From Cohaesibacter haloalkalitolerans (GTDB lineage Bacteria; Pseudomonadota; Alphaproteobacteria; Rhizobiales; Cohaesibacteraceae): a stretch of DNA of 64,000 nt. The first letter of the stretch is position 1, and every line of letters begins with the position of its first letter. The position numbers were made by a program, and so were the translations under genes. Location of the stretch: assembly GCF_003574655.1 (NCBI RefSeq), contig NZ_QNUM01000001.1, positions 620,001-684,000 on the forward strand, written 5' to 3'. This document shows, piece by piece, positions 5,342-60,821 of the stretch. Below the pieces are notes generated by a model that searched no databases, was not told the DNA's origin, and was given only the letters and a program-made list of their open reading frames with translations.

Positions 5342-5409
5342 GGTATTTGTCCGTCGCTTTTTCTTGTTTTTTTTGAATCTGATCTGTCTTTTTCTTCATA
5401 CCAGAAAAT

Positions 5410-5428: not shown

Positions 5429-5562
5429 AACAAAAGGCCCCGGGAAGCGTTTGCCGCAAGCATGCACAGAAAGCATGTGCCGCTGCGTTCCGGCACTCTA
5501 TACGGGAACGGTCAAAAGGGGTCATCTGAGGGGGAGCAAGAGTTTGAACTTGGAGTTTCGGG

Positions 5563-6810: not shown

Positions 6811-6837
6811 TCGCCTGACTTTCAGGTTCTGTTTCAA

Positions 6838-22964: not shown

Positions 22965-22967
22965 AGC

Positions 22968-28888: not shown

Positions 28889-28900
28889 AAGGTGGTGGCC

Positions 28901-35460: not shown

Positions 35461-35539
35461 TATCGAAGAATTTGTTTTTTTGTAATGAGCGTTTATGCTG
35501 CGAGTTTGTTTCTCCCTTTACTTGAGGGGGCAGGCCACG

Positions 35540-35560
35540 ATGACAGTGAAAGACAATTGA
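35540..35560 (+). promoter_or_regulatory. Six-codon upstream ORF with the only good RBS before the PKS gene
   Basis: ATG-ACA-GTG-AAA-GAC-AAT-TGA is preceded by a strong purine-rich site (gagggggcagg) at ideal spacing. The PKS ATG, seven bases after this TGA, has no visible site of its own. Coupled re-initiation is plausible. Confidence 0.45.
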
Positions 35561-35567
35561 AATAACG

Positions 35568-43280: not shown

Positions 43281-43460
43281 TTTCGTCTGTTGCGTCCGTT
43301 TCCTGCTGGCCGATACCGTTTCGCCATGGTTTAAAGGATCGGGCGAAGGATCATCCCCATTGATGCATGAGAGCTGCGACACGACTGTGCCGCAGTTTGC
43401 TGGCAAGGTCTGTGGATGCAACAAGGTCTTCTTCGCCGATAGAAGAGAACGGAGCAATGA

Positions 43461-44825
43461 ATGTCCAAGCAGCAATTTGACCGGGAGTCCATCCTCAACC
43501 TCTCGCGTTCCATGGCCAAGGGGGCGGTTTCCAAGCCGGCTGCAAGACGGGGTGCTCCTGCTAAGGTTGACCGGTCGAAGACCGACTTTGCGACTCTGGA
43601 TCTCTATCAACAGATTGCCATCCAGCGGGACATGGCCGAAAAGCTGCAGACACGGGATCCCTATTTCGTTCTGCACGAGACCCGTGCCGGTGCGACGACA
43701 ATCGTCGACGGCAAGGAGCTCATCAATTTTGCTTCCTATGACTATCTGGGGCTGAATGGCCTTGACGAGGTGCATCAGGCGGCCAAGGATGCCATTGACG
43801 CTTTTGGCACCTCCGTTTCCGGTTCGCGTCCGACCTCAGGTGAGCGCCCGTTTCATGGTGCGCTAGAAAAGCAACTGGCCGAGCTCTATCAAAGCGAAGC
43901 GGCGCTGGTCTTCGTTTCCGGCCATGCCACCAACGTTTCGACGATCGGTGAGCTGCTCGGGCCGACGGATCTGGTGGTGTTTGACGCCTATAGCCACAAC
44001 TCGGTGACGACGGGCTGCAAACTTTCCGGTGCGACGCGGCGATCCTTCAAGCATAATGACCTTGACGATCTGGAACGGATCTTGGCCGAGACCCGCGATG
44101 CCCATGATCGAGTAATGATCGTGGTCGAGGGGCTTTATTCCATGGATGGCGACATGCCGGATCTGGCGCGTCTCGTCGAGATCAAGGAACGGTTCGGCGT
44201 CTGGCTGATGGTCGACGAAGCCCATTCCCTGGGTGTGCTGGGCGCAACGGGCAAGGGCCTGTTCGAGCAGCAGGCTGTCGATCCTTCCAAGGTTGATATC
44301 TGGATGGGCACCATGAGCAAGACCATGAGCGGTTGCGGCGGTTATATCTGCGGCAATCAGGTGCTGATCGACATTTTGAAATTCTTTGCATCCGGCTTCA
44401 TGTATAGTGTGGGCCTGTCGGCCCCGCTCGCTGTTGCCGGGGCCAAGTCACTGGAAATCATGCAGCGCGAACCCTGGCGGGTGGAAAAGCTGCAGTCCAA
44501 TGGCCAGTTCTTTCTGAAAGCGGCGCAGGCTGCCGGGCTTGATACCGGGCATAGCGCCGGATTCTGCGTGGTGCCGGTGATCGTTGGCGACAGCTTGCGG
44601 GCCGTCAAGCTGAGCAACAACCTGATGGACAATGGCATCTATGCCTTCCCGATCACCTATCCTGCGGTGCCGATGCATGCGGCGCGCCTGCGGTTTTTCA
44701 TCAGTGCCACGCATAGTGAAGAACAACTGCAACAGGCGGTTGACATCACGGCGCGGGAGCTGAGGAAGCTGGAAGAGGCAAATTTCTCCATTGCCACGTC
44801 GCTTGGCAATCTGACTACTGACTGA
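43461..44825 (+). CDS. rkpG: PLP-dependent alpha-oxoamine synthase (RkpG-like)
   Basis: A 454-residue member of the AONS/KBL/serine-palmitoyltransferase family. It has NFASYDYLGL, GTSVSGSRPTSG, DEAHSLGVLG and the Schiff-base lysine K287 in TMSKTMSG. A ~60-residue N-terminal extension precedes the core. These enzymes condense an acyl thioester with an amino acid, releasing CO2. Next to an ACP-ending PKS it most likely captures the polyketide acyl chain and makes a long-chain amino ketone, like the first step of sphingoid-base synthesis. Biotin synthesis is unlikely: no bio genes are present. GGAG precedes the ATG. Confidence 0.9.
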   Translation: MSKQQFDRESILNLSRSMAKGAVSKPAARRGAPAKVDRSKTDFATLDLYQQIAIQRDMAEKLQTRDPYFVLHETRAGATTIVDGKELINFASYDYLGLNGLDEVHQAAKDAIDAFGTSVSGSRPTSGERPFHGALEKQLAELYQSEAALVFVSGHATNVSTIGELLGPTDLVVFDAYSHNSVTTGCKLSGATRRSFKHNDLDDLERILAETRDAHDRVMIVVEGLYSMDGDMPDLARLVEIKERFGVWLMVDEAHSLGVLGATGKGLFEQQAVDPSKVDIWMGTMSKTMSGCGGYICGNQVLIDILKFFASGFMYSVGLSAPLAVAGAKSLEIMQREPWRVEKLQSNGQFFLKAAQAAGLDTGHSAGFCVVPVIVGDSLRAVKLSNNLMDNGIYAFPITYPAVPMHAARLRFFISATHSEEQLQQAVDITARELRKLEEANFSIATSLGNLTTD

Positions 44826-44837
44826 CGGGTTTGACTG

Positions 44838-45644
44838 ATGGGCAAGGTGCCGCGCTCCATTCTGATTACCGGAGCCAGCAAGGGGCTGGGAGCTGCGCTG
44901 GCCATGGCCTGTGCTGCCGAGGATATCCGGCTGATCCTGACAGCGCGCAGCACGGTGGCTCTTGAGGCGGTCAAACGGCATTGTGAACTGGCGGGTGCGC
45001 AGGTGTCCTGCCTGCCGCTGGATCTTGCCGATGAGGACAGTGTCGAGCAGGCATTGGCCCTTGTCGAAACGGCTGGTCTGCCGGATCTGGTGATTTGCAA
45101 CGCGGGTGTCTTTTCGGGGCGTCGCCCGAGCGGTTTGCTTGAAAGCCGGCAAGAGCAGCGGGAGCAACTGGCGGTCAATCTCACCGGAACCATCCACTTT
45201 ACGGATTGTCTTGCCCAGGCGATGAAGGAACGGCGGCGGGGCCATCTGGTTCTTGTCAGTTCCCTTGCTGCCATTCAGCCGCAGCCGGACAGCCCGGTCT
45301 ACAGTGCCAGCAAGGCCGGACTTGCCGCCTGGGGGCGGGCGCTGGGAGAGGATCTTGCCGCGCATGGCGTCAAGGTCAGTGTGGTCTATCCGGGCCATAT
45401 CGAAAGCCAGCAGACCGCCGCCCAGATGGGGGTTTTGCCGGGAATCATACCCGCCAGCAAAGCGGCCTCTCTTATCCTGCGCGGCGTGGCGCGGGGGCGG
45501 GAGCGGATCATATTTCCGCGTCATCTCTTCTGGCTTATCCTCGTCAGCAACGCTCTGCCCGGCTGGTTCCGTCGCTGGGTGAACCGGCCGTTTCGCTACC
45601 ATGTTGCCGCTTCGGAGCCGCCGAGCCATGAGGAGGACGGGTAA
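44838..45644 (+). CDS. rkpH: Short-chain dehydrogenase, 3-ketosphinganine-reductase-like (RkpH-like)
   Basis: A 268-residue classical SDR: TGASKGLG (11-18), NAG, and catalytic YxxxK at Y155/K159. A hydrophobic C-terminal stretch (LFWLILVSNALPGWF, near 233-247) resembles the membrane tail of 3-ketodihydrosphingosine reductases. It probably reduces the keto group of the RkpG product with NADPH. It lies 12 bases after the oxoamine synthase and its TAA overlaps the next ATG by one base. Confidence 0.88.
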   Translation: MGKVPRSILITGASKGLGAALAMACAAEDIRLILTARSTVALEAVKRHCELAGAQVSCLPLDLADEDSVEQALALVETAGLPDLVICNAGVFSGRRPSGLLESRQEQREQLAVNLTGTIHFTDCLAQAMKERRRGHLVLVSSLAAIQPQPDSPVYSASKAGLAAWGRALGEDLAAHGVKVSVVYPGHIESQQTAAQMGVLPGIIPASKAASLILRGVARGRERIIFPRHLFWLILVSNALPGWFRRWVNRPFRYHVAASEPPSHEEDG

Positions 45645-46744
45645 TGGCTGCACACCCCGTGCAATGGCAGGACCGGCCGGCCGTGATCTATGGCGTCGGC
45701 TTCTGGAACCGTGGCTCGATCTGCGGCATGTTGGCGCACTTGCCCGGCAAGCCGCGCTTTTTCTGGTCGTTTGCACGTGCCGTTAAAGCTGCCAAGGCCA
45801 GCGGGGCCAGTCTCTTCGCCTGGACAACCCGGTTGAGTGACGAGCAACGTGCAACCTGTGAGGCGATGAGCGTTCCGATCGTCAATGTCGAGGATGGCTT
45901 CATTCGATCCGTCGGGTTGGGGGCGGCCTTTGTTCCGGCGGCCTCCCTGATCATGGACGGGACCGGGATCTATTATGACCCCTCGCGGCCCAGCGATCTG
46001 GAGCTGATGCTGGAACAGGCTGAAGTGACGGACGAGGAGCGGGCACGGGGCGCGGCCTTTCGCCAACAGGTCGTGGCACTGCGTGTGTCGAAGTATAATG
46101 TCGGGGCTCCGTCAGAGCGAGCCGGTTTTGACACCGACCGTCAGACCATTCTGGTGCCCGGTCAGGTGAGCGACGATGCTTCGATCCGGAAGAGCCGAAG
46201 CGACAGTCTTGATCTGGCGTCAGGGGAAAACCCGAATCTGTTGCTGTTAAAGCAGGTTCGCAAGGCCAATCCCGATGCTTTCATCATCTTCAAGCCCCAT
46301 CCCGATGTCGCCAATGGGCTGCGGCTGGGAGCCCTGTCCGGTGAACAGACTGCTCTTTATGCTGACGCGGTGGAGGTCGATACAGACATCATCGATCTTA
46401 TCGAGCAATGCGATAGCGTGGAGACAATAAGCTCACTCTCTGGCTTTGAGGCCCTGTTGCGTGGCAAGCGCGTTGTTGTCCATGGTCTGCCCTTTTATGC
46501 CGGGTGGGGTGTGAGTGAAGACACAACGCGTTGCCCCCGGCGCAATCGGGTGCGGACACTTGATGAACTCGTTTTTCTGGCGATGATACGCTATCCACAA
46601 TATGTGGATCCGAGTAATCTAAAGTCGTGCGAGGCTGAGTCTGCAATTTCAGGTATATATCGGTTAAGGAATAATAAAACACAATCCTGTAGGGATAGGG
46701 CTATGCTTTATTTGGCAAGGATAGCCTTTCGCCTCGGGCTTTGA
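45644..46744 (+). CDS. kpsC: Single-domain KpsC-like protein resembling the KpsC C-terminal half
   Basis: A 366-residue protein with VEDGFIRSVGLG (82-93), SLIMDGTGIYYDPSRPSDLE, FKPHPDV and ISSLSGFEALLRGKRVVVHG followed by LPFYAGWG. These forms match the C-terminal catalytic half of KpsC. With the N-half-like protein at 34255 it could reconstitute the dual-linkage Kdo transferase as two chains. Its coupling to the SDR gene suggests lipid-anchor synthesis and Kdo addition are made together. The last ~30 residues are basic and may contact the membrane. Confidence 0.86.
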   Translation: MAAHPVQWQDRPAVIYGVGFWNRGSICGMLAHLPGKPRFFWSFARAVKAAKASGASLFAWTTRLSDEQRATCEAMSVPIVNVEDGFIRSVGLGAAFVPAASLIMDGTGIYYDPSRPSDLELMLEQAEVTDEERARGAAFRQQVVALRVSKYNVGAPSERAGFDTDRQTILVPGQVSDDASIRKSRSDSLDLASGENPNLLLLKQVRKANPDAFIIFKPHPDVANGLRLGALSGEQTALYADAVEVDTDIIDLIEQCDSVETISSLSGFEALLRGKRVVVHGLPFYAGWGVSEDTTRCPRRNRVRTLDELVFLAMIRYPQYVDPSNLKSCEAESAISGIYRLRNNKTQSCRDRAMLYLARIAFRLGL

Positions 46745-47017: not shown

Positions 47018-48154
47018 ATGCTTAGATCGCTGTTTGTTTTGATCGTTTCAGCCTCTCTTGCTGGATGTGCCATCACACCCAGAGAAGGGCCTCTCTCTTC
47101 GGAGATCGAAACGCAGAGCGAGAAAAACGAGTATCTCGTTGTCGATGTCGACTCGCAGATTGTGGACGGATTGTCCCGATTCATGCCTGTCAGCCTTCAC
47201 AGCCAGTTCAAGACAACGGCCCGCCATCTGCCAGTTTCCACAGTCGGTGTGGGCGATGTGCTGTCGGTGACGGTCTTCGAGGCAGATGAGGGCGGCCTGT
47301 TTTCCAACAAGTCCGGCAAGGGTGCCGAATTCCCCAGTGTCGTCGTGAACGAAAAGGGTGAGATCTCGCTGCCTTACACCGGGTCGATCAAGGTCAAGGG
47401 CAAGACGCCGCTGCAAATTCAGGATCTCGTCATAGAAAGCCTTGAAGGCAAGGCCATTCAGCCGCAGGCTATGGTCAATGTTGTGCGCAATGAAAACAAC
47501 ATCGTGACGCTCAGTGGGGATGTTTCGAAGCCGGGTCTCTATCCTCTCCCATCGCAGGGGGTTCGCCTGCTTGACGTGGTTGCTCAGGCTGGTGGCACCA
47601 AATATCCTGCACGTGAAACCTATGTTACGCTGATGCGCGGAAGTCGTCAGGGTGTTCAGCAGCTGGAAACAGTCATCAATCAGCCTGATGAAAATATTTA
47701 TGTTGCGCGTGGCGACCGGATTTATCTGGCGCACGATCCGCAACGCTATACGGTTCTTGGCGCTGTCAAGAAACCATCTGTCTACACGTTTGATGCCTCC
47801 AGTATTTCCGTTCTGGAAGCAATCGCTGCCGCTGGTGGCCTGAATGATATTCGCGCTGATGCGACGGGCGTCTTCGTCTTCCGATATGAAGATCCCAAAG
47901 TGCTGGATTCCATGAACATTCAGTACACGCGGCAGGTTCGTGGCAAGGTTCCTACTATTTATCGTATTAACATGAAGCATGCGCGGTCGTATTTCTACGC
48001 GCAGTCCTTCCATCTTGAGGACAAGGATTCCGTCTTCGTATCGAATGCTCGTGGTGTCGAGATCGGCAAGGTGCTGCAGTTGTGGAGTTTGGCAACCTCC
48101 TCTGTACGTAGTGTAGCCAGCACCGGGAATGCGTTCGAAGGCTTGTCCAATTAA
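47018..48154 (+). CDS. Outer-membrane polysaccharide export lipoprotein (Wza/KpsD class, OPX)
   Basis: A 378-residue protein with a lipoprotein signal peptide whose lipobox is LAGC (C17). A polysaccharide-export domain follows (VGVGDVLSVTVFEAD, about 77-91), then two ligand-binding beta-grasp domains (LSGDVSKPGLYPL and VLGAVKKPSVYTF). It should be the outer-membrane channel for the capsule, working with KpsE across the periplasm. It is shorter than E. coli KpsD and closer to Wza in layout. An AT-rich 273-base gap upstream probably carries a promoter. Confidence 0.93.
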   Translation: MLRSLFVLIVSASLAGCAITPREGPLSSEIETQSEKNEYLVVDVDSQIVDGLSRFMPVSLHSQFKTTARHLPVSTVGVGDVLSVTVFEADEGGLFSNKSGKGAEFPSVVVNEKGEISLPYTGSIKVKGKTPLQIQDLVIESLEGKAIQPQAMVNVVRNENNIVTLSGDVSKPGLYPLPSQGVRLLDVVAQAGGTKYPARETYVTLMRGSRQGVQQLETVINQPDENIYVARGDRIYLAHDPQRYTVLGAVKKPSVYTFDASSISVLEAIAAAGGLNDIRADATGVFVFRYEDPKVLDSMNIQYTRQVRGKVPTIYRINMKHARSYFYAQSFHLEDKDSVFVSNARGVEIGKVLQLWSLATSSVRSVASTGNAFEGLSN

Positions 48155-48195
48155 CAGTTGTGCCCGGTGATTGAAACCGGGCGCAGATTTTCTGG

Positions 48196-49623
48196 ATGTG
48201 CGGTGTTGGTGTGACCCAGGAGTTGCAAAATTCTGATGTGCGGGACGGAAAGAGAGTCTTTCTCTTTCTTCAGGGTCATCCCTCGTTCTTTGCGCGCAAT
48301 GTCGCCAACCGTCTCGAAAAGGATGGCCACACAGCGTTACGCATCAATTTCTGTCTGGGCGACAGGATTCTGTGGTGGGGGCGCAAGGGGTTTGGTTTCC
48401 GTCTGCCTTTTTCTGCGTGGGAAGGATATCTGCGCCGCTTTATCGCAAAGCATGGCGTCACCGATATCATCTATTACGCTGACCGCAAGCCCTACCACCA
48501 GATCGCGGCAAAAGTGGCCGATGAGCTTGGTATTCCCACCTACGCCTATGAGTTCGGGTATTTGAGGCCGGACTGGATTACTCTGGAGCGCGGGGGCATG
48601 TCTGCCTTTTCGCACTTCCCGATTGATCCGGATGAGATCCGGGCCATCGCCCAGCGTTGTGATGAACCGGACCTGCAACAGAAATATCCCTACACGAAAC
48701 CAAGGGAAATCGTCTTTGAGGTGAGCTACAATCTGCTCAGCTATTTCCTCTGGTTCCTTTATCCCTTCTACAAGGCAGACCGCTATTATAATCCGCTGCT
48801 TGAGTATATTTCTGGCATCCCGGGATTGTTCTATGAAAAGCGCCGCAACGTGGCAGCCCGGCGTCTGGTGACCAAGCTTGGCCGCGAGCGGAGGCCGTTC
48901 TTTGTTTTTTCCCTTCAATTGCAGAGTGACTATCAGTTGCGCTCAAACGCGCCTTTCTCACATCAGAAGAAGGCCATCGAGAGCGCCATGGTGTCTTTTG
49001 CCCGGAATACCGGCAAGCGGACAAACCTCATTCTGAAAGCCCATCCTCTGGATAACGGCTGGGAGCGGTGGGGGAGCTTCATCCGCAAGAAGGCAAAGGA
49101 ACTAGGGGTTTCCGATCGCGTCCATTTCATTGTTGGCGGCAACCTCACGTTCATGCTGAGGCATGCAAAGGGCTGTGTGATGATCAATAGCACTGTCGGC
49201 TTGCATTCTGTGCGGTCCGGGTGTCCGGTCAAGGTTCTGGGGCATGCGATCTATGACATCAAGGGGTTGACGCATCAGGGGTCTCTCGACAGTTTCTGGA
49301 AAGAGCCTCAGGCGCCGGATCCGGAGTTCGTAAAGGACTTTGTAAAGGCGCTCGCGGGGACCATTCAGGTCAAGGGGAACTTCTTTACAGCCAAGGGCAA
49401 CAAGGCTGCAGTGCCCGCTTTTGCGCGTAATCTGGTGGAACGGAATGTCAATGGGCTTGGTGCGTTTGCTCCCGTGCCGCCAAGGCTCCTGACCCTTCGC
49501 GCTTATGAGCGGCCGCTCTATGCCCAGAAGCCTGTTGCTGTGGAGGTCGATGTCGAGGCTGTGTCTGACGTCGATGCCGATGTGGCTCCAGCGTTCAATC
49601 CTGCGGTTCTGAGCATCCGGTAA
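48196..49623 (+). CDS. kpsS: KpsS-like capsule Kdo transferase
   Basis: A 475-residue KpsS-family protein: VFLFLQGHPSFFARNVANRL near the start, YEFGYLRPDWITLE, KAHPLDNG (about 281-288) and INSTVGLHSVRSG followed by CPVKVLGHAIYD. KpsS adds the first beta-Kdo to the lipid acceptor before KpsC extends the linker. The C-terminal ~60 residues, rich in Val/Asp/Glu, are not part of the usual domain. It lies 41 bases after the export lipoprotein gene. The ribosome-binding site is weak. Confidence 0.92.
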   Translation: MCGVGVTQELQNSDVRDGKRVFLFLQGHPSFFARNVANRLEKDGHTALRINFCLGDRILWWGRKGFGFRLPFSAWEGYLRRFIAKHGVTDIIYYADRKPYHQIAAKVADELGIPTYAYEFGYLRPDWITLERGGMSAFSHFPIDPDEIRAIAQRCDEPDLQQKYPYTKPREIVFEVSYNLLSYFLWFLYPFYKADRYYNPLLEYISGIPGLFYEKRRNVAARRLVTKLGRERRPFFVFSLQLQSDYQLRSNAPFSHQKKAIESAMVSFARNTGKRTNLILKAHPLDNGWERWGSFIRKKAKELGVSDRVHFIVGGNLTFMLRHAKGCVMINSTVGLHSVRSGCPVKVLGHAIYDIKGLTHQGSLDSFWKEPQAPDPEFVKDFVKALAGTIQVKGNFFTAKGNKAAVPAFARNLVERNVNGLGAFAPVPPRLLTLRAYERPLYAQKPVAVEVDVEAVSDVDADVAPAFNPAVLSIR

Positions 49624-51691: not shown

Positions 51692-53521
51692 ATGACGCAA
51701 TCTGAAACTGTTTCTGCGGGGCTGGATGGAATAACCGGTTCTGCCCGTGCGGGCTGTTCGCCGCTTGATCTGATTCAGAAAGTCTTTCCCATTCGCTCTC
51801 TCCTACATGTCGGGACAGGTTTGAAGCGTGCATTTGACGTTTATCGTGATCTGGCTGTGCCGTCGGTTGTTTTTGTGGAAACTGGTGGCGCGGACCTTGG
51901 TCGGCTGAGCAATGCTCTGGGGGATCGGGCTGGCTACAGCCTTCATCAAGCCTGGCTGACTGACATAGCCGGTGATGCTGTTTGCTATAGTGCCAGCAAC
52001 ATCAAGGAAAGCGGCTTGATCAAGCCTGAAAGCCTAGCTTCCCTTTGGCAGAATCTGAAGACCAGATCGGAAATGCCGGTTGAGACCGTCACGCTTGATC
52101 AATTCGTGGATGCTTCCGTTGCACCGGAAGCTGCCAGTGTGATGAACTGGATCGTCATTGATCAGCTGCAGGCCGGGGCGGTTGCCAAGGGTGGCCGCTC
52201 GTTGATTGCCCGATGTGACGTGGTAGTCGCGAGGCTTGTCCTGGTCGATAACTTACTGCCTGAGGCAAGCGGATTTTCCAAGACGGAATTCGATGCCCTT
52301 ATGGCGGACTTTGGTCTGGCACATGTTGTAACCGAGCCGGAAGTCAATCCCGCAGTTGCTCGGTGTTTCTACGTGCGCGACTGGAAGCAGCAGTTGCAGT
52401 CGGAGCTTGGGGCGTTCAAGGCTCAGGCGAAAGACCGGCAGGTGGCATTGGAAGGTGAACTTTCGAACCTGCGTGAGGCTCTGCGAGCCGCGGCTGCTCG
52501 GAGTGCTGAAGAGATCAGTCGCCTTGTTTCTGAAAGAGATGAGAAGGCCGCGCTCGCAACGAAGCGGGCCGAACATGTTCAGCATTTGACCAGGGCGCGT
52601 GATGAGCAGACGGCTTTGGTGAAAACGAATGAGAACGAGGTCAAGCGATTGACCCGCGTGCTCAATATGAAGCCGCCAATGTTCAACTTCAAAGGCATTC
52701 GTCGCCTGGAGCGTCTGGCGGATACCAGTAAAAGCCCAAAGGTTTATGTGGAAGTCAAGTCGTTGCCGCGGTCCGGGCTGCACTATCTGCGCAACAGTCT
52801 GGAGCATATTCTTGGCCCTTCTTTCAGCTTTTGTGAGTGGTATCACGAGCCTGGATGTTGCCGGAATATGCCATGTGATCTGACCGGCATCATGGAAAAT
52901 GATGATCGTCCTCATCTGCGGCTGATCAAGTCGCATGACTTCGATCTTCTTGATCCTCCCTATTCTGTCAATGGGTCTTCGATCCGGCGCCTTATTCTTG
53001 TCCGAGAGCCACTCTATATTCTGACGTCATGGTGGGGGCTGGAAGTCATTCAGGCCAATGCTCAGATGTTGGCAAAGAACAATATCAACGTGACCAAGAT
53101 TTTCTTTATGCATGAAAAGGCGGTTGTGGCTGATGCCTTTGCCCTGATCGAACGTGAGGGTGTGCTGCCCAAAGAGGAGGGACTGGAAGCATGGCTCAAG
53201 GAAAAGCAGAGTTACATTGCTGGTTTTGTTGACAAGTGGTGCAATCCCAAGGAGCCTCTTGGGGATGTTGTCTCTTATGGTGATGGCAAACAGCATGTGT
53301 TGCGATTGCTGGAACCGTTTGTTGAGACGATGAGCGAGCAGTCGCGCCATATGCTGGATGAGTTCAAGGAAGGAAGCCTCGATGCCTTCCGCCCCAGAAA
53401 GAGCGCCTTCGATGGGCCGACGGAGTGTGTGTCCCGGTTTTTGCACGACCATGCCAAGGCGTTCGAGGCGGCGGCCGCAGAGCTTGGCGGTACGCCCGGT
53501 GGAACGGATGGAGTGAAATAG
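51692..53521 (+). CDS. Methyltransferase-like / coiled-coil / sulfotransferase fusion protein
   Basis: A 609-residue multidomain protein. Residues about 25-230 look like a degenerate FkbM-type methyltransferase fold (SLLHVGTGLKRAFDVYRDL, VVFVETGGADLGRL). Residues about 233-330 form a coiled coil. Residues about 345-600 are a sulfotransferase with a PAPS loop SLPRSGLHYLRN (355-366) and a 3'-phosphate strand RRLILVREPLYILTSWW (about 432-448). It shares the coiled-coil architecture with its upstream neighbour, 29 bases away, so the two may associate. Sulfation of the capsule is the likely role; the N-terminal part may bind glycan rather than methylate. Confidence 0.72.
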   Translation: MTQSETVSAGLDGITGSARAGCSPLDLIQKVFPIRSLLHVGTGLKRAFDVYRDLAVPSVVFVETGGADLGRLSNALGDRAGYSLHQAWLTDIAGDAVCYSASNIKESGLIKPESLASLWQNLKTRSEMPVETVTLDQFVDASVAPEAASVMNWIVIDQLQAGAVAKGGRSLIARCDVVVARLVLVDNLLPEASGFSKTEFDALMADFGLAHVVTEPEVNPAVARCFYVRDWKQQLQSELGAFKAQAKDRQVALEGELSNLREALRAAAARSAEEISRLVSERDEKAALATKRAEHVQHLTRARDEQTALVKTNENEVKRLTRVLNMKPPMFNFKGIRRLERLADTSKSPKVYVEVKSLPRSGLHYLRNSLEHILGPSFSFCEWYHEPGCCRNMPCDLTGIMENDDRPHLRLIKSHDFDLLDPPYSVNGSSIRRLILVREPLYILTSWWGLEVIQANAQMLAKNNINVTKIFFMHEKAVVADAFALIEREGVLPKEEGLEAWLKEKQSYIAGFVDKWCNPKEPLGDVVSYGDGKQHVLRLLEPFVETMSEQSRHMLDEFKEGSLDAFRPRKSAFDGPTECVSRFLHDHAKAFEAAAAELGGTPGGTDGVK

Positions 53522-53950
53522 TCTGATTGTAGGGTGCAAGCTTTGGTGATGGCAATCAGAAGGTCATGCGGGTATGATACGTGGAGAGATAATGTAGTTT
53601 CTTCTTGCAAATCGTGTTGTGGTGGGGAAAATTGAGTACATATATAGTAGTTGAGTAATTCGGGATGGGTCTGTAGGTTTATTAACTGGCTTTTGTTTTT
53701 CTTTCAATTTTTGGTTGTATTTTGTATTTTGCTTCTTTTGGTTGTTCTTTCTGCTTGTGTTGAAAGGCAAGTTCAAAAGAAACGTCCTTTTTGAATTTAT
53801 TGCCCTTGCCGGTTGTTTTTCGTCGAAACGCTGCTCCGGGCTTGTGATGTTCTTGCGCATGTATTTGTTGCAGGCTGTTCGTTGAGTGCTATTTATTTTT
53901 TAGTAATGGATGACCTTGCATCAAATAACTCTTTGTTAGAGAGATGGAAA
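53522..53950. other. Strand-asymmetric AT-rich intergenic region
   Basis: About 430 bases, strongly AT-rich. A stretch at about 53685-53765 is very rich in T and G and poor in A and C on the plus strand. The frame of the downstream gene remains open into this region (an ATG at 53906, a TTG at 53813) but without a ribosome-binding site. No separate gene is called. Confidence 0.45.
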
Positions 53951-56818
53951 ATGGAATATACCATTAGTAATAGCGACAAGTTAATTCGTGATGTATTCGA
54001 GATTTATAAATCAAAATCCTGGAACAAGCTTACGGAGTTGTGGGATGTGCAGGGTAAGGAAAAATTGCTTCCTTACACCGTGTTCAAGGCCTTCTATTCT
54101 TCATTTGATCGATGCAAGAATGAAGAGTTGAAGCCGCAGGTCTTCAAAACGAAGAAAAAGCTCCTGTCCATTGTTACGATCAACTACAACAATGAAGGCG
54201 GGTTGCGTGAAACCGTGGAATCTGTTTTGGCGCAGACAGATCGTGCGTCCATCCAGTATATTGTCGTGGATGGTGCGTCTACTGACAAATCACTCGATTA
54301 TCTCCGGCAAGTCGCTTCCAAAATCGATGTTCCCGTTTTTGGGTCGGACAAGGGCATTTATGATGCCATGAACCGGGGACTGGAGTTTGTAAACTCCGAA
54401 TACACGCTCTTTCTCAATTCCGGGGACTGCCTGTCCGCTCCTGACGTTGTCGCCAAGATCAAGGCCTTTCTGAACGCGCAAAAGGAACGCCCGGTAGCCG
54501 CCTATGGTCCGACGCTTACGTCGGGGGGAAGTCAGTGGCCATGCAAACCGCAATCCGAGCTCTGGAAGGGGATGATCTGTAGCCATCAATCCATTCTGAT
54601 CGATACGGATTTTCTGTCATCCATCGGCTTCAGTCTGCGCTACAAGATTGTTTCCGATTTTGAGGTCATCTACCGGACCTATCTGACAGGGCGCCCCTTG
54701 GCTGAGATGCCATTCAGTGTTTCGAAGATTGAGGACGTGGGCGTTTCTTCGGATTTTGTTGCCAGAACGCTTGAGCGCTGGCAGGTTGTTCGCTCCTACA
54801 AGAACAGGGCGGTCACGCCCGAGCAGATCGATGCCTTTTATCAGGGGATGTTGAACGGCGAAGGGAGCAAGGGGGCTGCTCCCAAGGTCGTGGCCTCGTC
54901 GCCAGCTGTTCCCTCAGACGTCGAGAAGCGCATCGTGTTTCTTATCTCCATGCCGCGTTCCGGTTCGACCATGCTGCAGAAGATTCTCGATCGTAGTTCG
55001 GCAATCGGAACTGTTGGTGAGCCGTGGGTGATGCTCCCGCTGATGTCGATGTATGATCCGGAGCTGGTGGAGGCCAAATATGGTCAGCTGCTCAACATCG
55101 AGGCCGCAGGTGAATTTGTCCGGGCCGTTGGCGACAAGGACCTGATCCTGAAGGCCCAGCGCCAGTATGCGGATCAGATTTACAGCGCCATTCTTGGTAA
55201 GTTGGGCACAGAACGCTTTCTGGACAAGACACCGCGCTATGTTCATATCGTGGACAAACTGGCAGATCTCTACCCGAATGCCAAGTTCGTCGTGTTGTTG
55301 CGCAATCCGGGCGCGATCATCAGTTCCTATGCCCACACGTGGGCTGGCGGCAACTTCCATACCGTCAAGAAGACGCCAGAGTATATGTATGATTTCACGC
55401 ACGGCTTTCCGAAGTTGGCCGAGTTCGCGACCAGCGGTCGCAGCAACATGCATGTGGTGAAGTATGAGGAGCTGGTTGCCAATCCGGAAGACGAGGCGCA
55501 GCGTTTGTTTGACTATCTGGAGCTGCCTTTCTCCGGCGATCTGGTCAATTATGGGTCGGGCAAACCGCAGGAGACCGACAAATATGCGTTTGGTGATCCG
55601 GGAACGGTCTATCAGAAGTCCAAGCCGGATGCCTCGCACAGCGCTCGCTGGCTGAAGGACAACGAGAATGTAACCACCATCAATTTTTTCCAGGATATTG
55701 TTCGCTCGCTCGACGATGAAGCTGTGACAGCGATGGGTTATTCGAAAGCCACGATTCTCGACCAGCTCAAGACAGCGGGTGCCAAACCCATTGATGTGCC
55801 TGCACTTGTTAAGAAATATGGGGCGTGGAAAGCTGGTGGCAGCAAGAAGATCCCAGCCTATGGCAAGAGTCTTGGTGTCCTCATTACGTGCTTCAACAAC
55901 CAGAACTCGATCACCCATGCCTTGCAGTCGGTCATCAGTCAGTCCAAAAAGCCGGATCTGGTTGTTGTGGCTGACGACTGTTCTGAAGATGGCTCGGTTG
56001 GTGTGATCAAGGAATTTATTGCCAAGAACAAAGCGTTCAATATACGGCTGATCGCCAGACCGAAGAATGTCGGGGTTGCTGCAAATCGTGATCTCGCGAT
56101 CAAGTCAATGGATGTCGACTTTGTCTCGACCATCGACGGAGACGACCTGTTCTATCCGGGCAAGCTGGAAGCCGAATGGCGGACGCTGAAGGGCAATGAG
56201 GCTCATGTTGCGTTCAGCGATATTCTGATGGTGACTGGCAAGGATGCGGAACATCTTCTGAAGACAGATGCTTACAACAAGAAGCCCAAAAACGAGATTA
56301 CGCGTTATATGCTGACGCGGGTCAATCCCGTTCCGCGTGATATGATGTTCTCCAAGGCTCTGTATCTGAAGGCTGAAGGCTTTGATCATGGTGTGTCGAT
56401 CTATGAAGACTGGGCTCTAAAGCAGAGGCTTATTGCTGCCGCTGATGAAAATGGCTGGCTTCATTCAGGGGCGATCGGCACAATCTATGATCGTAGGGCA
56501 CCGGGGTTATCCGGTAAGCCTCCTATTTATCATGCCTTTGGAGAAATGATCATTCTGGGACGGAATATCGAATATTATCGCCATGACAACAGTCTTGTGG
56601 TTGCTGCGATCTATTCCATCATGCGTCACCTTAAGGGGCCCATGAAGGAAAGAACTGAGAATTTCCTCAAACACTATCCAGTGGAAGGGGAAGTGCCAGA
56701 GTTTATGGCAGATTCACTTTTGACTTTGTGGAGGGAGCGTCGCTTGTGTAAGTCAACAGAAGCAAAGGCTAAAGCTATTTGGCAATTCTTTAGCCCACCT
56801 CTTGAGGTAAAGAAGTAA
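53951..56818 (+). CDS. Three-domain GT2 / sulfotransferase / GT2 fusion enzyme
   Basis: A protein of about 955 residues. Residues about 70-270 are a GT2 glycosyltransferase (SIVTINYNNEGG, VVDGASTDKS, GSDKGIYDAMN, FLNSGD). Residues about 330-600 are a sulfotransferase with PAPS loop SMPRSGSTMLQ (333-343), VGEPW, and a 3'-phosphate strand FVVLLRNPGAIISSY (446-460). Residues about 640-860 are a second GT2 (GVLITCFNNQNS, VVADDCSEDGS, TIDGDD). All three sites look intact. It probably adds two sugars and a sulfate to one growing chain. The ATG at 53951 has a weak GAGAG site; 53906 is an alternative. Confidence 0.88.
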   Translation: MEYTISNSDKLIRDVFEIYKSKSWNKLTELWDVQGKEKLLPYTVFKAFYSSFDRCKNEELKPQVFKTKKKLLSIVTINYNNEGGLRETVESVLAQTDRASIQYIVVDGASTDKSLDYLRQVASKIDVPVFGSDKGIYDAMNRGLEFVNSEYTLFLNSGDCLSAPDVVAKIKAFLNAQKERPVAAYGPTLTSGGSQWPCKPQSELWKGMICSHQSILIDTDFLSSIGFSLRYKIVSDFEVIYRTYLTGRPLAEMPFSVSKIEDVGVSSDFVARTLERWQVVRSYKNRAVTPEQIDAFYQGMLNGEGSKGAAPKVVASSPAVPSDVEKRIVFLISMPRSGSTMLQKILDRSSAIGTVGEPWVMLPLMSMYDPELVEAKYGQLLNIEAAGEFVRAVGDKDLILKAQRQYADQIYSAILGKLGTERFLDKTPRYVHIVDKLADLYPNAKFVVLLRNPGAIISSYAHTWAGGNFHTVKKTPEYMYDFTHGFPKLAEFATSGRSNMHVVKYEELVANPEDEAQRLFDYLELPFSGDLVNYGSGKPQETDKYAFGDPGTVYQKSKPDASHSARWLKDNENVTTINFFQDIVRSLDDEAVTAMGYSKATILDQLKTAGAKPIDVPALVKKYGAWKAGGSKKIPAYGKSLGVLITCFNNQNSITHALQSVISQSKKPDLVVVADDCSEDGSVGVIKEFIAKNKAFNIRLIARPKNVGVAANRDLAIKSMDVDFVSTIDGDDLFYPGKLEAEWRTLKGNEAHVAFSDILMVTGKDAEHLLKTDAYNKKPKNEITRYMLTRVNPVPRDMMFSKALYLKAEGFDHGVSIYEDWALKQRLIAAADENGWLHSGAIGTIYDRRAPGLSGKPPIYHAFGEMIILGRNIEYYRHDNSLVVAAIYSIMRHLKGPMKERTENFLKHYPVEGEVPEFMADSLLTLWRERRLCKSTEAKAKAIWQFFSPPLEVKK

Positions 56819-56832
56819 TCGTCTGAGCGAAT

Positions 56833-57702
56833 ATGGGAATTTTGCAGATGAAACTCTTCCTATGTACACCCGTGAGGAATGCCGTGACTACGATCGATAG
56901 AACAATCGAGAGTGTCGTTGCGCAAAAAGGGGACTGCCAGATTTTCTATCACGTCAAGGATGCCTTGTCCGATGATGGAACAACCGAACGGCTCAAGGAA
57001 TGGGCCGAACGTCTGTCCGGGCACCCCACTGTTGCCTTCAGCTACAGCAGCAGCAAGGACAAGGGCATGTATGATGCCATTGCCGAGAGCTTTGACCTGC
57101 CTCAGGCCAGAGCTGCGGATTGGCTCTCCTGGATCAATGCCGACGACTATCTGATCGACAATGCGGTTGCATTCATTGGCGAGATTGATGGCATCAATCA
57201 GATCGATATCAGTTGGGTGGGTGGCAAAGCGACCATGCGTACCAAGGAGGGTAAAATCATTTCTTCCAAGCGACCGCTCACCTCCGCAGTAATCAAGCTT
57301 GGCCTGGCTGATGGAAAGCACATGGATTTTGTGCAGCAGGAAGGCACCTTCTTCAAACGCAAGGCGTGGGACGCCTGTGTTGACGTTGAAAAATTCAGGG
57401 CGTTTCGTTTGGCTGGTGACTGGTATCTCTGGTCTCAGCTTGCCCAGAAGCACGAGGTCTATTTCTGCTCAGAGCCGCTCGCTGTTTTCTGCCAGGCCGA
57501 AAGCCAGTTGTCTTCGGATCTTGATGCCTACCGCGATGAAATGGAGGGTGTCATTCCGAACGTGTCGCGGCGGCAAAGCATTAACGGCAATGCTGGCTAC
57601 AACAGCCTAGTCAATTTTCTCTATCCCACGGATCAGGGCATCTATCTCAGGAAAACTGTCATCAACGGCTATTACGATCACCGAAAGCAGAAGAGCATCT
57701 AG
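56833..57702 (+). CDS. GT2-family glycosyltransferase
   Basis: A 289-residue GT-A enzyme: LFLCTPVRNAVTTIDRTIESV, KDALSDDGT, SSSKDKGMYDAIAE and the DxD-like INADDY. The KGMYDAI and WINADD forms resemble WcaA/WcaE-type capsule glycosyltransferases. It follows the fusion gene by 14 bases and should act in the same assembly. The donor is unknown. An in-frame ATG at 56848 is an alternative start. Confidence 0.88.
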   Translation: MGILQMKLFLCTPVRNAVTTIDRTIESVVAQKGDCQIFYHVKDALSDDGTTERLKEWAERLSGHPTVAFSYSSSKDKGMYDAIAESFDLPQARAADWLSWINADDYLIDNAVAFIGEIDGINQIDISWVGGKATMRTKEGKIISSKRPLTSAVIKLGLADGKHMDFVQQEGTFFKRKAWDACVDVEKFRAFRLAGDWYLWSQLAQKHEVYFCSEPLAVFCQAESQLSSDLDAYRDEMEGVIPNVSRRQSINGNAGYNSLVNFLYPTDQGIYLRKTVINGYYDHRKQKSI

Positions 57703-58107
57703 GCGCTCTTCTTGTAGAGGTCAGGCTTTATGCTGTTCCTGCCAGAGGCCCGTGTGCCGGGGAAAGACGTCGGATTGGTCAAGTCGGACGTCTCGGTAAA
57801 GGGGTGCCATAAAACGGCTGCAATTGCTGTCCACTCTTCGAAGCTTAGTTTTGTCCAGATTTTATGGTAAATTCCTTCGTGTGTTTTTCACGAAAGCAGG
57901 TTAAAAGCACTAAGTTTCCTGTTTCAAAAATGGAATGGAATCGAATCAAGGATGTTTCGCTGCTTATGCCTGATCACGCTATGAGTGGCAGCGTGTGCCA
58001 TATGGTGCTGATCGGATTTCAAGGGCCCAGTAGTCCATCCGACATCCGAAGTCGCAGGCCCTAGCACGGGTGTCTGCATTATTGAATTGGAAGGTTTGCG
58101 TTGTTCA
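57703..58107. other. Intergenic region upstream of kpsMTE
   Basis: 405 bases without a credible gene. It holds two GACGTC palindromes 21 bases apart (57766-57771, 57787-57792) and a small hairpin (ttcgtg/cacgaa, 57876-57894), followed by an AT-rich stretch. It likely contains the promoter of the exporter operon. Confidence 0.4.
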
Positions 58108-58935
58108 ATGCTTGGTGTTTCGCGATTTATCAAAGTAACTGACATCAACGCAGCGCAGCTACGGAGCGGGGCTTATCGACAACGATCAGCCATCTGGGCT
58201 CTGGTTTTCAAAGAGTTCAAAATCAGACTTGGTAAGAGTCGCATCGGTTTTTTCTGGACCATGGTTGAGCCGATCATCGGCATGATCATGTTTGGTCTGA
58301 TCCGACTGTCAATCGGGCAGAGTGAAGTTCATCATGTGCCGGTAATGCTATTCATTGGTACCGGGTTCATCGTGTTCAATGCTTTCCGGTCCGGCATGAA
58401 CTTTATTCCCAACGCGATCATCGCCAATCAGGGCCTGCTCAATTACCCCCAGGTCAAGCCGATCGATACCATTCTGGCGCGCTTCATCCTTTCCATCTGG
58501 CTTCACCTTCTGGCCAGTTCCTTCATGCTGTTGCTGCTCTGGTGGGTTACTGGGGACCATCCATCCTTCGTCGACCCTTTGCTGTGCATCCAGACGCTTG
58601 TGCTTGCCACCCTGTTGGGGCTCGGTGTTGCCTTTTTGATCGCCATCTATGGTACGCAACACGAGAGCGTCTTCAAGCTGATTGGCATCATTGGTATGCC
58701 TATGATGATCCTGTCAGGTGTCATGATATCGATGAATGAGCTGTCGGCTTCAGCGAGACAGTATCTTGCCTGGAATCCGATCATCCATCTCGTTGAGGGC
58801 TTTCGTCACGGTGCCTTTGGTACGCGTCTGTTTCCCGAGTATGATCTGGGGTATCCGACCCTGGTGACAGTTCTGCTTTTGGGACTTGGCTATGCCCTTT
58901 ACTACAACTACCGTTTCAAACTGCTAATGAAATGA
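58108..58935 (+). CDS. kpsM: Capsule ABC transporter permease KpsM
   Basis: A 275-residue ABC-2 type permease with about six membrane segments. An N-terminal cytoplasmic helix (ALVFKEFKIRLGKSRIGFFWTMVEP) typical of KpsM/Wzm is present, with WNPIIHLVEGFRHGAF near the C-terminus. It moves the lipid-linked capsule across the inner membrane. A TTG at 58087 would add seven residues; the ATG is preferred. The stop overlaps kpsT (ATGA). Confidence 0.94.
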   Translation: MLGVSRFIKVTDINAAQLRSGAYRQRSAIWALVFKEFKIRLGKSRIGFFWTMVEPIIGMIMFGLIRLSIGQSEVHHVPVMLFIGTGFIVFNAFRSGMNFIPNAIIANQGLLNYPQVKPIDTILARFILSIWLHLLASSFMLLLLWWVTGDHPSFVDPLLCIQTLVLATLLGLGVAFLIAIYGTQHESVFKLIGIIGMPMMILSGVMISMNELSASARQYLAWNPIIHLVEGFRHGAFGTRLFPEYDLGYPTLVTVLLLGLGYALYYNYRFKLLMK

Positions 58936-59594
58936 TCCAGCTAGAGAATGTTTCCAAATACTATGCGACGCCGGGCGGGCGCCATTATGTGCTGAAGGAC
59001 GTTTCTTTCACGGTTCCTGATCATGCGCAGCTTGGCGTTCTGGGCCCCAATGGTGCTGGCAAGTCCACGCTGATGCGCCTGTTCTCCGGGGTTGATGTGC
59101 CAAACAAGGGACGGATCATCCGAACCGGCAGCATATCATGGCCCATGGGGTTGGCATCTTCGATGCAGAATGCCCTGACTGGTAAGGAAAACGCCCGGTT
59201 TGCCTGTCAGATTCAAGGTATTTCGCACAAGCAGGTCGGGGAAGTTGTCGAGGGGATACGGGACTTTGCTGAAATCGGCAAGTATTTTGATATGCCGGTT
59301 CGGACCTATTCATCTGGTATGAGGGCCCGCCTCAACTTTGCCATTGCCATGGCGTTCGACTTCAATTGCTATATCATTGACGAATTGACGGCCGTAGGTG
59401 ACCAGAATTTCAAGAACAAGAGTAGGGCCACATTCGAGAAGAAGCGCCAGAATGCCAGCTTCATCAAGGTTTCCCATAGTCTTGAGGAACTGAGGGCGGA
59501 ATGCAACATGGGCCTCGTTTTGAACAAGGGGTCCGCGACGATCTATGACAGTTTTGCTGAGGCCGAGGAAGTCTATTTGCAAAACATCAAGTGA
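58932..59594 (+). CDS. kpsT: Capsule ABC transporter ATP-binding protein KpsT
   Basis: A 220-residue ATPase with Walker A GPNGAGKST (38-46), the capsule-type signature YSSGMRARLNFA in place of LSGGQ, and Walker B YIIDE. It lacks the long C-terminal carbohydrate-binding domain of Wzt, so it is the generic KpsT type that recognises the conserved Kdo-lipid terminus. That fits the KpsS and KpsC genes here. Confidence 0.95.
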   Translation: MIQLENVSKYYATPGGRHYVLKDVSFTVPDHAQLGVLGPNGAGKSTLMRLFSGVDVPNKGRIIRTGSISWPMGLASSMQNALTGKENARFACQIQGISHKQVGEVVEGIRDFAEIGKYFDMPVRTYSSGMRARLNFAIAMAFDFNCYIIDELTAVGDQNFKNKSRATFEKKRQNASFIKVSHSLEELRAECNMGLVLNKGSATIYDSFAEAEEVYLQNIK

Positions 59595-59729
59595 CGTTCA
59601 AGACGATATTGTTCAATAATTGTCTAGCTCAGTAGAATACACGGCCATCTGGAAGAGTTTGTGCCCGAGTTCTCGTTATAACACCAACGAACACACTGTT
59701 CCCAAGCGTGGAGCCAAAGTGAAATAGCC

Positions 59730-60821
59730 ATGGCCAAAATTCAACTGTCCCTGTCAAGATTATTGCTGATTGTTCTGCTCATCATCCCGGTTATCCTTGT
59801 CATCATCTACGCCGTGTTGGTGGCTACTGACCGTTTCGAGAGCGGTGCTTCGGTCTATATTACCGAAGAGCAGGGGGCGTCGAGTGCGCTGGACTTGTCC
59901 TCTCTTGGCTTTACGACCACGAGCAATTCGCGTGAAATCATGGTGCTCAAGGCCTTCATCGACTCTCAGGGCATGATGATGCGGCTGGACAAGGACTTAC
60001 ATCTTCTTGATCATTTCTCAAGCTCCGGGGCTGACATATTCTCTCGTCTTGAGACGGGGGCTCCCATCGAGATTGCCTATGAATATTACAAGAAACGGAT
60101 CAAGACCAACTTCGATGATCAGGCCCAGCTGCTCGAAATCTCGGTTCAGACTTTTGACAATGAGTTTTCCAAGAAGGTTCTTGATCGGATCCTTGCGCAT
60201 TCGCAGGACTTCATCGATCAGTTGAACGAGCAAATCAAGTCATCGCAGCTCCTCTTCTTTCAGGCGGAGGTGAAGACTTCCGAGAATGAGTTGATCGAGG
60301 CACGAAACCGCCTTACTGAGTTTCAGCGCGAGAATGCCATTTTCTCCACGGATCTGGCAACAAAGACCATTGGTGGCACGATTTCCGGCTTGGAACAGCA
60401 ATTGGCCGCTCGGCAGGCCGATTTGAGTTCCCGCCTCGGGGTGCTGGACGAGAGTTCGCCAACGGTCAAGCGCATCCGGGCGGAGATCGAAGCCCTGAAA
60501 GACCAGATCAACAAGGAGAACGCCAGGCTGGCGTCCGACAAGGGCAACTCACTGAGCGAGTTGGACAGTAAGTTTCGCGAAATCGAATTGCTGATTGAAT
60601 ACAAGACCTTGCGCTACAAGGCCAACTTGCAGGCCTATGAGCAGGCCCAGCTGGATACGGCGCGCCGATTGCGGTTCCTGACCATTGTTGCCGAGCCGAC
60701 CGTGGCGGAAAGCGCTCTCTATCCTGATCGCATATACATGGTGATAACGGGGTCTATTCTGGCGTTTGTCTTCTACTTCCTGGTCACGATTTCCATCGCC
60801 ATCATTCGCGAGCACTCATAG
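59730..60821 (+). CDS. kpsE: Capsule export inner-membrane polysaccharide co-polymerase KpsE
   Basis: A 363-residue PCP-3 family protein. It has a membrane segment at about 9-31, a large periplasmic region with coiled coil (about 180-310: ENELIEARNRLTEFQREN and repeated Leu/Glu heptads), and a second membrane segment near the C-terminus (about 337-357). YPDRIYMVITGSILAF matches KpsE-type ends. It should bridge KpsMT to the outer-membrane lipoprotein. It follows kpsT by 135 bases and is the last capsule gene before a terminator. Confidence 0.93.
   Translation: MAKIQLSLSRLLLIVLLIIPVILVIIYAVLVATDRFESGASVYITEEQGASSALDLSSLGFTTTSNSREIMVLKAFIDSQGMMMRLDKDLHLLDHFSSSGADIFSRLETGAPIEIAYEYYKKRIKTNFDDQAQLLEISVQTFDNEFSKKVLDRILAHSQDFIDQLNEQIKSSQLLFFQAEVKTSENELIEARNRLTEFQRENAIFSTDLATKTIGGTISGLEQQLAARQADLSSRLGVLDESSPTVKRIRAEIEALKDQINKENARLASDKGNSLSELDSKFREIELLIEYKTLRYKANLQAYEQAQLDTARRLRFLTIVAEPTVAESALYPDRIYMVITGSILAFVFYFLVTISIAIIREHS

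Follow-up and report, generated by a model that had tools for sequence, protein, structure and literature searches.

The stretch of Cohaesibacter haloalkalitolerans DNA analysed here (the window, 64,000 nucleotides) raises the question of what is made by a gene that joins two glycosyltransferases and a sulfotransferase in one chain. A single uninterrupted frame of 955 codons, from ATG 53951 to the stop at 56818 on the + strand, was found to encode GT2 – Sulfotransfer_3 – GT2. The mechanical open reading frame begins upstream at TTG 53813, a start that was disfavoured. ATG 53951 was preferred because nucleotide homology to another genome of the same genus (G012) begins exactly there; AGAGAG is found a few bases 5′ of this codon. 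A frameshift or assembly artefact was ruled out because the same chain occurs in three genomes. The gene is laid out as follows:

53951..56818, + strand: fused GT2-sulfotransferase-GT2 gene, 955 aa (ORF, Pfam, homology)
53951..54148, + strand: N-terminal extension, aa 1-66, without a Pfam match, GC 0.389
54161..54751, + strand: N-terminal GT2, aa 71-267, with NSGD motif, D236 and signature LWKGMICSHQ
54908..55840, + strand: sulfotransferase domain as modelled, aa 320-630, with Sulfotransfer_3 at aa 329-528 (Pfam, predicted model)
54953..54970, + strand: PRSGST loop, aa 335-340 (motif conservation, TPST1 alignment)
55223..55240, + strand: DKTPRY, aa 425-430, aligned to NKDP of TPST1
55301..55327, + strand: R451...S459 segment (motif conservation, TPST1 alignment)
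55868..56440, + strand: C-terminal GT2, aa 640-830 (Pfam, NCBIfam)
56135..56146, + strand: DGDD, aa 729-732, a putative metal-binding motif of the C-terminal GT2
56402..56413, + strand: YEDW of the C-terminal GT2, aa 818-821, putative catalytic base

The original prediction had placed two complete GT2 domains around a sulfotransferase on one chain, and this was upheld. PF00535 (Glycos_transf_2) matched the protein twice (4.2e-40; 137.8 bits for the whole protein against a cut-off of 23.3), PF13469 (Sulfotransfer_3) matched aa 329-528 (1.3e-31; 111 bits against a cut-off of 27) and the catalytic motifs were kept in all three domains. PF00685 also matched (1.2e-11), and NCBIfam matches put the first GT2 region at aa 71-267 and the second at about aa 640-830. 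Both GT2 domains hold a putative acidic metal-binding motif and a putative catalytic base. D159 was present in 30/30 rows of the N-terminal GT2 alignment and D236 in 29/30; D729, D731, D732, E819 and D820 were each present in 8/8 rows of the C-terminal one. The full-length AlphaFold2 model, built from a two-row alignment (window and L031), was of low confidence (pLDDT 33.3, pTM 0.23).

By its predicted model and conserved residues, the middle domain is a PAP-binding sulfotransferase fold with PAPS-binding loops. The model of this domain (pLDDT 79.3, pTM 0.80) aligned with PAP-bound TPST1 at Z 20.3 (3.5 Å over 247 residues) and so did not lack PAPS-binding geometry. R336, E357, K426, R451 and S459 matched identical residue types in the TPST1 alignment, in agreement with the earlier claim that the PAPS loops are intact; all five were invariant across ten sequences, and K426 and S459 varied in a wider nine-row set. 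We take PRSGST (aa 335-340) to be the 5′-phosphosulfate loop and R451...S459 to be the 3′-phosphate-binding segment. That the domain is catalytically dead, serving as a mere spacer or docking module, is scarcely credible: no point in its favour was found, and it is opposed both by the five invariant residues and by a dN/dS that was the lowest of the three domains (0.039, against 0.076 for the N-terminal and 0.080 for the C-terminal GT2; window/G012 pair, our own Nei-Gojobori script). All three domains were under purifying selection.

The best NCBIfam models were WcaE (TIGR04009) for the N-terminal GT2 (5.3e-31; 107.8 bits, curated cut-off 369.2), NoeE (NF052394) for the middle domain (6.1e-31; 107.5 bits, cut-off 500) and TuaG (NF047683) for the C-terminal GT2 (4.2e-25; 88.8 bits, cut-off 400). 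All three cut-offs were missed by far, so no donor, acceptor or sulfation site was assigned from them. The nearest named families of the first two domains, WcaE and NoeE, are both tied to fucose: excerpts of the literature describe NoeE as sulfating C3 of a fucose (PMC5080398) and the use of WcaE homology to predict a fucosyltransferase (PMC13317340).

The fusion gene lies among the following genes:

20158-21069, + strand: CysD-like, PAPS_reduct domain (domain match; functional name putative)
21069-22964, + strand: CysNC-like, GTP_EFTU and APS_kinase (domain match; functional name putative)
22968-23765, + strand: CysQ-like, Inositol_P (domain match; functional name putative)
27767-28888 and 28892-29857, + strand: putative gmd and fcl, GDP-L-fucose synthesis (named by family and pathway)
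34255..46744, + strand: block of KpsC-like, 2570-aa PKS-like ORF, AONS-like, SDR-like and KpsC-like genes
47018..49623, + strand: Poly_export/SLBB exporter (KpsD-like) and KpsS-like protein (Pfam, NCBIfam)
51692..53521, + strand: 609-aa neighbour protein (Sulfotransfer_1, E 0.28)
56833..57702, + strand: separate GT2 directly downstream of the fusion (24.1 bits, cut-off 23.3)
58087..60821, + strand: KpsM-like, ABC ATPase and KpsE-like export genes (NCBIfam best matches, all below cut-off)

The CysD-, CysNC- and CysQ-like genes form a sulfate-activation stretch (20158..23765, + strand). Pfam Capsule_synth matched both KpsC-like proteins of the block at 34255..46744 (+ strand), which resembles rkp or wcb lipid-carrier genes; its PKS, AONS and SDR labels are putative, read off the sequence. 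The export genes were named "Kps-like" from best match and place: KpsM reached 95.6 bits against a curated cut-off of 300 and BexC/CtrB/KpsE 246.9 against 437.5, and the ABC ATPase, for which no KpsT model stood among the best 25 of 179 NCBIfam matches, was taken for KpsT from its place. Capsule_synth (KpsC/KpsS) and Poly_export genes, by which an ABC-dependent capsule locus was recognised, exceeded their Pfam cut-offs. Gene content marks the locus as a capsule cluster that uses ABC export and brings along genes for PAPS and GDP-fucose, and the fusion protein probably contributes to making a sulfated coat. The C-terminal part of the 51692..53521 protein may, on a weak match, be a second, divergent sulfotransferase; a search of this protein by sequence against solved structures, up to E 1, returned no sulfotransferase.

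Domains and locus together suggest that the gene product is one cytoplasmic, three-headed capsule enzyme that would add a sugar, sulfate and add another, a reading to which we give about an even chance of being right. The WcaE-like GT2 would add a sugar, perhaps L-fucose from GDP-fucose, and the NoeE-like domain would O-sulfate the residue so added, with PAPS made by CysD/CysNC and the CysQ-like protein disposing of PAP. A further sugar would be attached by the C-terminal GT2. Joining the domains would tie the three steps to one another in a constant ratio as a single glycan grows; the remaining transferases of the locus would complete this glycan, and the Kps proteins would export it. The original prediction took the fusion to imply sulfation during elongation, between the two sugar transfers, and hence a fixed pattern. 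A strict order of addition, sulfation and addition would fit the proposal; domain order along a chain does not reveal reaction order, and similar enzymes are also encoded by adjacent separate genes. If the three sites do share one glycan, the protein would be a ready-made route to bacterial polysaccharides with regular sulfation, and with it one could ask whether architecture can set a sulfation pattern.

The same layout could belong to a sulfating capsule polymerase, in which sugar transfers would alternate and the end of the nascent chain would be sulfated in each cycle, giving a pattern set by the enzyme; this we consider unlikely. The chondroitin polymerase K4CP carries two GT2 sites on one chain and is not known to have a sulfotransferase domain. 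A version modelled on it, in which the GT2 sites would take turns to build a disaccharide repeat and each newly added residue would be sulfated by the middle domain, is decidedly unlikely. Pfam placed two GT2 domains on one chain, as in the K4CP type, the locus has genes for ABC capsule export, and the top solved-structure match of the C-terminal GT2 by sequence was chondroitin synthase (3.1e-6). This likeness is, however, weak (E 3.1e-6 and 4.7e-4), and at least four further glycosyltransferase genes in the locus (two Glycos_transf_1, two GT2) suggest a longer repeat. Single-chain multi-enzyme capsule polymerases are known from portions of PMC10299916 and PMC5974469. Were the polymerase reading true, a bacterial polysaccharide would receive its sulfate in the course of synthesis, in contrast to sulfation as a step of its own, which is the usual case.

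A search for other proteins of the same domain order, advised in the original prediction, found two. The G012 ortholog (967 aa, 91% identity) was the sole full-length relative among 17 other genomes of the genus, so that the fusion gene was present in 2/18 (window included). A relative in Synechococcus sp. AG-673-B04 (873 aa, 39% over aa 72-874) had the same order, lacked the N-terminal extension (aa 1-66) and had gmd and fcl directly upstream. This relative came from a scan of named genomes with exact short peptide patterns, which is non-exhaustive. Within the genus, fcl-like genes were widespread (14/18 genomes at E<=1e-60), and 6/18, window included, had one at 78% identity or more. The G012 locus was largely colinear with that of the window, with the fusion gene in reversed orientation; an invertible cassette was rejected, as window positions 53401-53960 and 56781-58090 share no exact match in inverted orientation exceeding 10 bases.

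No further full-length relative was found in draws of 397 order, 385 class and 398 phylum genomes, nor in 300 Synechococcus-family, 224 Synechococcus-phylum and 74 G1109-family genomes; these draws overlap and include incomplete genomes, and mostly two or three first-look candidates were scored per genome. No single place covering 80% of the query was found in 72,556 plasmid or 50,697 phage records, sets that may omit records very near the window's genome, and the viral-contig scans held no full-length relative. Titles and abstract starts of the open-licence literature on such fusions or on sulfated-fucose clusters mentioned no bacterial glycosyltransferase-sulfotransferase fusion. The GT2-sulfotransferase-GT2 arrangement is rare, and its occurrence in two groups as distant as Cohaesibacter haloalkalitolerans and a Synechococcus suggests that a module for a sulfated coat has moved from one to the other.

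Unfused relatives bear on what the joining achieves. G012 also carries a GT2 gene overlapping a sulfotransferase-GT2 gene, the unfused equivalent, whose sulfotransferase is of another type. In G1450, of the Synechococcus phylum, related enzymes were encoded by three adjacent genes (GT2, sulfotransferase, GT2). The first GT2 there resembles the C-terminal GT2 of the fusion, and the last bears just a loose likeness to the N-terminal GT2; with the resemblances swapped, the gene order differs from that of the fused chain. The split pair and the three-gene version are natural unfused controls and were counted in favour of the three-headed enzyme. Both also lend weight to a reading, on balance rather unlikely, in which tethering is all that the fusion provides: the activities would be independent, the sulfotransferase would act on complete or partial glycan after both sugars are placed, and fusion would set dosage and not pattern. 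NoeE, which acts after fucosylation according to parts of PMC5080398, fits this too. Against it, the GT2-sulfotransferase-GT2 order is common to the window's genus and Synechococcus, with their N-terminal GT2s in one clade, and an order kept across both groups hints that joining gives some advantage.

The fused clade was supported at 98/90 in the N-terminal GT2 tree (30 rows) and weakly, at 71/33, in the sulfotransferase tree (14 rows). It was unsupported in the C-terminal GT2 tree (8 rows), where two changes were needed and one change was seen in 9% of bootstrap trees. From these trees, the fusion likely arose once. Of nine stretches that hold a stand-alone sulfotransferase relative and were compared with gmd and fcl, 2/9 had a clear fcl, a count that weighs against the three-headed reading: the relative in L087 (an IMG/VR contig) overlaps an fcl-like gene and that in L078 (G1109) is about 6.6 kb from gmd/fcl. 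The spread of fcl-like genes through the genus, beside a fusion gene in 2/18, weighs against it too, while gmd and fcl next to the Synechococcus fusion gene and in L087 and L078 speak for it. L077, L081, L083, L091, L116 and L117 had no fcl or weak epimerase matches (24-33% in L117, 22% in L077), and L080, also among the nine stretches, is 3.8 kb long.

Comparison of the fusion protein with known systems showed likeness part by part. NoeE (the NGR234 copy, L085) shared 30.0% identity with the middle domain over aa 328-610 and the same invariant residues. Parts of PMC5080398 describe it as a stand-alone enzyme with fucosylated Nod factors as its substrates, whereas the middle domain is part of a fusion. 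WcaE, a colanic acid glycosyltransferase with a one-domain model of 248 positions, resembles the N-terminal GT2. K4CP (2z86, 2z87) matched both GT2 parts by sequence, weakly; a portion of PMC10299916 names it as a polymerase that makes capsule in a group 2 system. Bcs3 and the TagF-like family, as far as sections of PMC10299916 and PMC5974469 describe them, also carry several capsule-building activities on one chain, the parts being sugar, phosphatase and polyol- or hexose-phosphate transfer domains. The word "sulfotransferase" is absent from the main texts of both papers, and a figure legend in PMC5974469 assigns modifications to separate enzymes. The original prediction held that bacterial sulfation normally uses separate enzymes, which accords with excerpts of the literature on the Cobetia marina sulfated CPS and synechan (xss) clusters. 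Both have sulfotransferase genes within a capsule or EPS cluster, as here, and that of Cobetia marina shares PAPS genes and Kps export with the window's locus; their sulfotransferases and glycosyltransferases are described in those excerpts as distinct genes, unlike the fusion.

The gene at 53951-56818, on the forward strand, was found to be a stop-free frame of 955 residues. Pfam placed a Sulfotransfer_3 domain flanked by two Glycos_transf_2 stretches in its product, over the curated cut-offs, and NCBIfam gave the following stretches:

residues 71-267, N-terminal GT2 domain
residues 327-526, sulfotransferase domain
residues about 640-830, C-terminal GT2 domain

These matches within one frame bear out the GT2-sulfotransferase-GT2 architecture of the original prediction. 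The mechanical ORF begins at TTG 53813. Nucleotide homology with G012, a genome of the same genus that encodes a 91% ortholog, starts precisely at ATG 53951, and both fusion proteins open with MEYTIS; the 955 amino acid form is therefore the likely product. A membrane segment was not suggested, as the maximum 19-residue Kyte-Doolittle mean was only 0.98, and we infer from the sequence that the protein sits in the cytoplasm.

Alignment of ten sulfotransferase relatives, including the Nod-factor fucose sulfotransferase NoeE, showed R336, G338, T340, E357, D425, K426, T427, P428, Y430, R451 and S459 to be invariant. A wider nine-row set that took in remoter TPR-type sulfotransferases kept R336, E357 and R451 invariant, and K426 and S459 varied. 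The ten-sequence profile matched the solved structures of the CurM sulfotransferase (4gbm, 2.8e-30), the olefin synthase sulfotransferase (4gox, 7.7e-29) and tyrosylprotein sulfotransferases (TPSTs; best 2.2e-18). In its alignment with TPST1 the R, E, K, R and S residues of the domain lined up, at positions which we take to serve PAPS binding or catalysis. The predicted model of the domain, made from nine sequences (mean pLDDT 79.3, pTM 0.80), matched the PAP complexes of TPST2 and TPST1 in Foldseek (4.9e-8), and the VIA comparison with the PAP complex of TPST1 gave a Z of 20.3 and 3.5 A over 247 residues. The PAPS loops, predicted to be intact, are thus upheld by residues that are invariant in ten relatives and aligned with TPST1. 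The acidic motifs were kept in both GT2 domains.

Between the window and G012, dN/dS, calculated for this pair with our own Nei-Gojobori script, was 0.112 over the whole fusion gene, 0.076 in the N-terminal GT2, 0.039 in the sulfotransferase and 0.080 in the C-terminal GT2. The first linker (residues 286-325; 0.114) and the tail (871-955; 0.271) were looser than the domains. As dS was uneven along the gene (0.27 in the sulfotransferase, 0.92 in the C-terminal GT2, against stretch L007 of G012), domain-wise recombination inside it is suggested.

The fused gene was present in 2 of 18 genomes of the genus, the window's and G012, and these two were also the only matches at 1e-30 in an order-level draw of 397 genomes. 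The class draw gave matches in 4/385 genomes, namely the window's and three with a stand-alone C-type GT2. In the phylum draw, searched with a seven-row profile, 44 of 398 genomes matched at 1e-25, and more than one domain was spanned only in the window's genome. A pattern scan of named genomes revealed one relative, an 873 aa protein of Synechococcus sp. AG-673-B04 with the same three domains and 39% identity over residues 72-874. Any match was seen in 2 of 300 genomes of the Synechococcus family and 20 of 224 of its phylum, in each case at full length only in AG-673-B04. The 74 genomes of another family having stand-alone sulfotransferase relatives gave four matches, with no full-length fusion, and no plasmid or phage record searched holds most of the fusion.

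Relatives also occur split over two or three genes:

L030:8351-11120 (G012), split module, a GT2 gene overlapping a sulfotransferase-GT2 gene
L116:8680-11652 (G1450, a genome of the Synechococcus phylum), three-gene GT2, sulfotransferase, GT2 version

The G012 module lies about 10 kb from the fusion; the end of its WcaE-like GT2 gene overlaps the start of the second gene, which encodes 678 aa. The signature LWxGMICSHQ is shared by this lone GT2 and the three fused proteins (4/4) and was found in 0/26 other N-terminal GT2 rows, many of them BLAST match segments. The sulfotransferase of the split module belongs to another branch (identity at most 17%). The region of the module holds ORFs that, by eye, resemble transposases. 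The G1450 genes are successive and co-directional, encoding 304, 337 and 300 aa. The first resembles the C-terminal GT2 (29% over 235 residues, 3.9e-25) and the second the sulfotransferase (34% over 293). The third matches the N-terminal GT2 over 88 residues only (1.1e-15) and is closer to the window GT2 at 31096 (5.4e-24), making it less than a strict counterpart.

Among the five phylum-draw genomes with a stand-alone sulfotransferase, this gene was overlapped by a GT2 gene in two (L081, L083) and had one a gene beyond it in two (L077, L078); none was seen beside it in L080, a short contig. Because such clusters commonly hold GT2 genes, this adjacency is modest evidence of a link, and the fused gene is stronger. 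Separately, a frame in a Synechococcus-family genome (G1002, L039:6762-8834) seems to join a GT2 like that at window 56833 with an N-type (WcaE-like) GT2, with gmd and fcl on the same stretch. On an IMG/VR contig (L092:4188-6334), the gene after one for a TPR-sulfotransferase matches CysNC over its APS-kinase part (51%).

The best named relatives were the colanic acid glycosyltransferase WcaE for the N-terminal GT2 and NoeE for the sulfotransferase, both fucose-linked. Passages of PMC5080398 describe NoeE sulfation at C3 of 2-O-methylfucose, later than fucosylation; part of PMC13317340 predicts a fucosyltransferase from WcaE homology, and an excerpt of PMC12075129 lists wcaE among the genes starting colanic acid and puts the addition of fucose at the second and third steps. 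The window locus contains GDP-fucose genes, as does the stretch immediately ahead of the Synechococcus fusion. The fusion protein misses the NCBIfam cut-offs of WcaE and NoeE, so a fucose reading is hypothetical, and we place it at slightly under an even chance because a recount of neighbours found a clear fcl in 2/9 stretches with a stand-alone sulfotransferase relative (L078, L087; the nine include L080, too short to judge). The stretches L077, L081, L083, L091, L116 and L117, compared with gmd and fcl, were without a clear fcl. On L087, an IMG/VR contig, the sulfotransferase relative overlaps an fcl-like gene (4938-6823).

The fusion shares its strand with CysD-, CysNC- and CysQ-like genes for providing PAPS and clearing PAP, two Glycos_transf_1 genes, gmd, fcl, one GT2, and a KpsC-like gene ahead of a long PKS-like ORF that is followed by AONS-like and SDR-like ORFs. 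The PKS-, AONS- and SDR-like labels, and the resemblance to rkp or wcb lipid genes, are our assumption. Next on the strand are KpsC-, KpsD- and KpsS-like genes and the genes at 50067 and 51692, whose proteins were without family; after the fusion come a further GT2 and KpsM-, ATPase- and KpsE-like genes. The other strand carries:

32849-33952, strand opposite to the fusion, GSCFA gene

The block from CysD to 51692 is colinear in G012 (matched genes 73-99% identical). Two window genes at 32049-33952 have no counterpart at that place, the fusion gene is reversed, and the downstream GT2, KpsM, KpsT and KpsE were absent from the compared 37 kb of G012. The 50067-51662 protein (531 aa), which fits no family clearly and shares 89% identity with its G012 copy, has a long charged middle. 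That of 51692-53521 has, by eye, a long heptad-like middle, longer in the G012 copy, and C-terminal PRSG and REP...S motifs; its C-terminal part may be another sulfotransferase, much diverged.

The fusion protein would be a three-headed capsule enzyme making one sulfated segment. Fusion alone need not mean sulfation between two sugar additions, as originally predicted, because the domains may act in a sequence other than that along the chain and because of the separately encoded relatives. What is new is the architecture, a variant of multi-domain capsule enzymes whose component families are already known. The Cobetia sulfated-capsule cluster, in the portion of PMC11766843 that covers it, holds PAPS genes, a sulfotransferase, glycosyltransferases, wcb and kps, a gene combination similar to that of the window locus.
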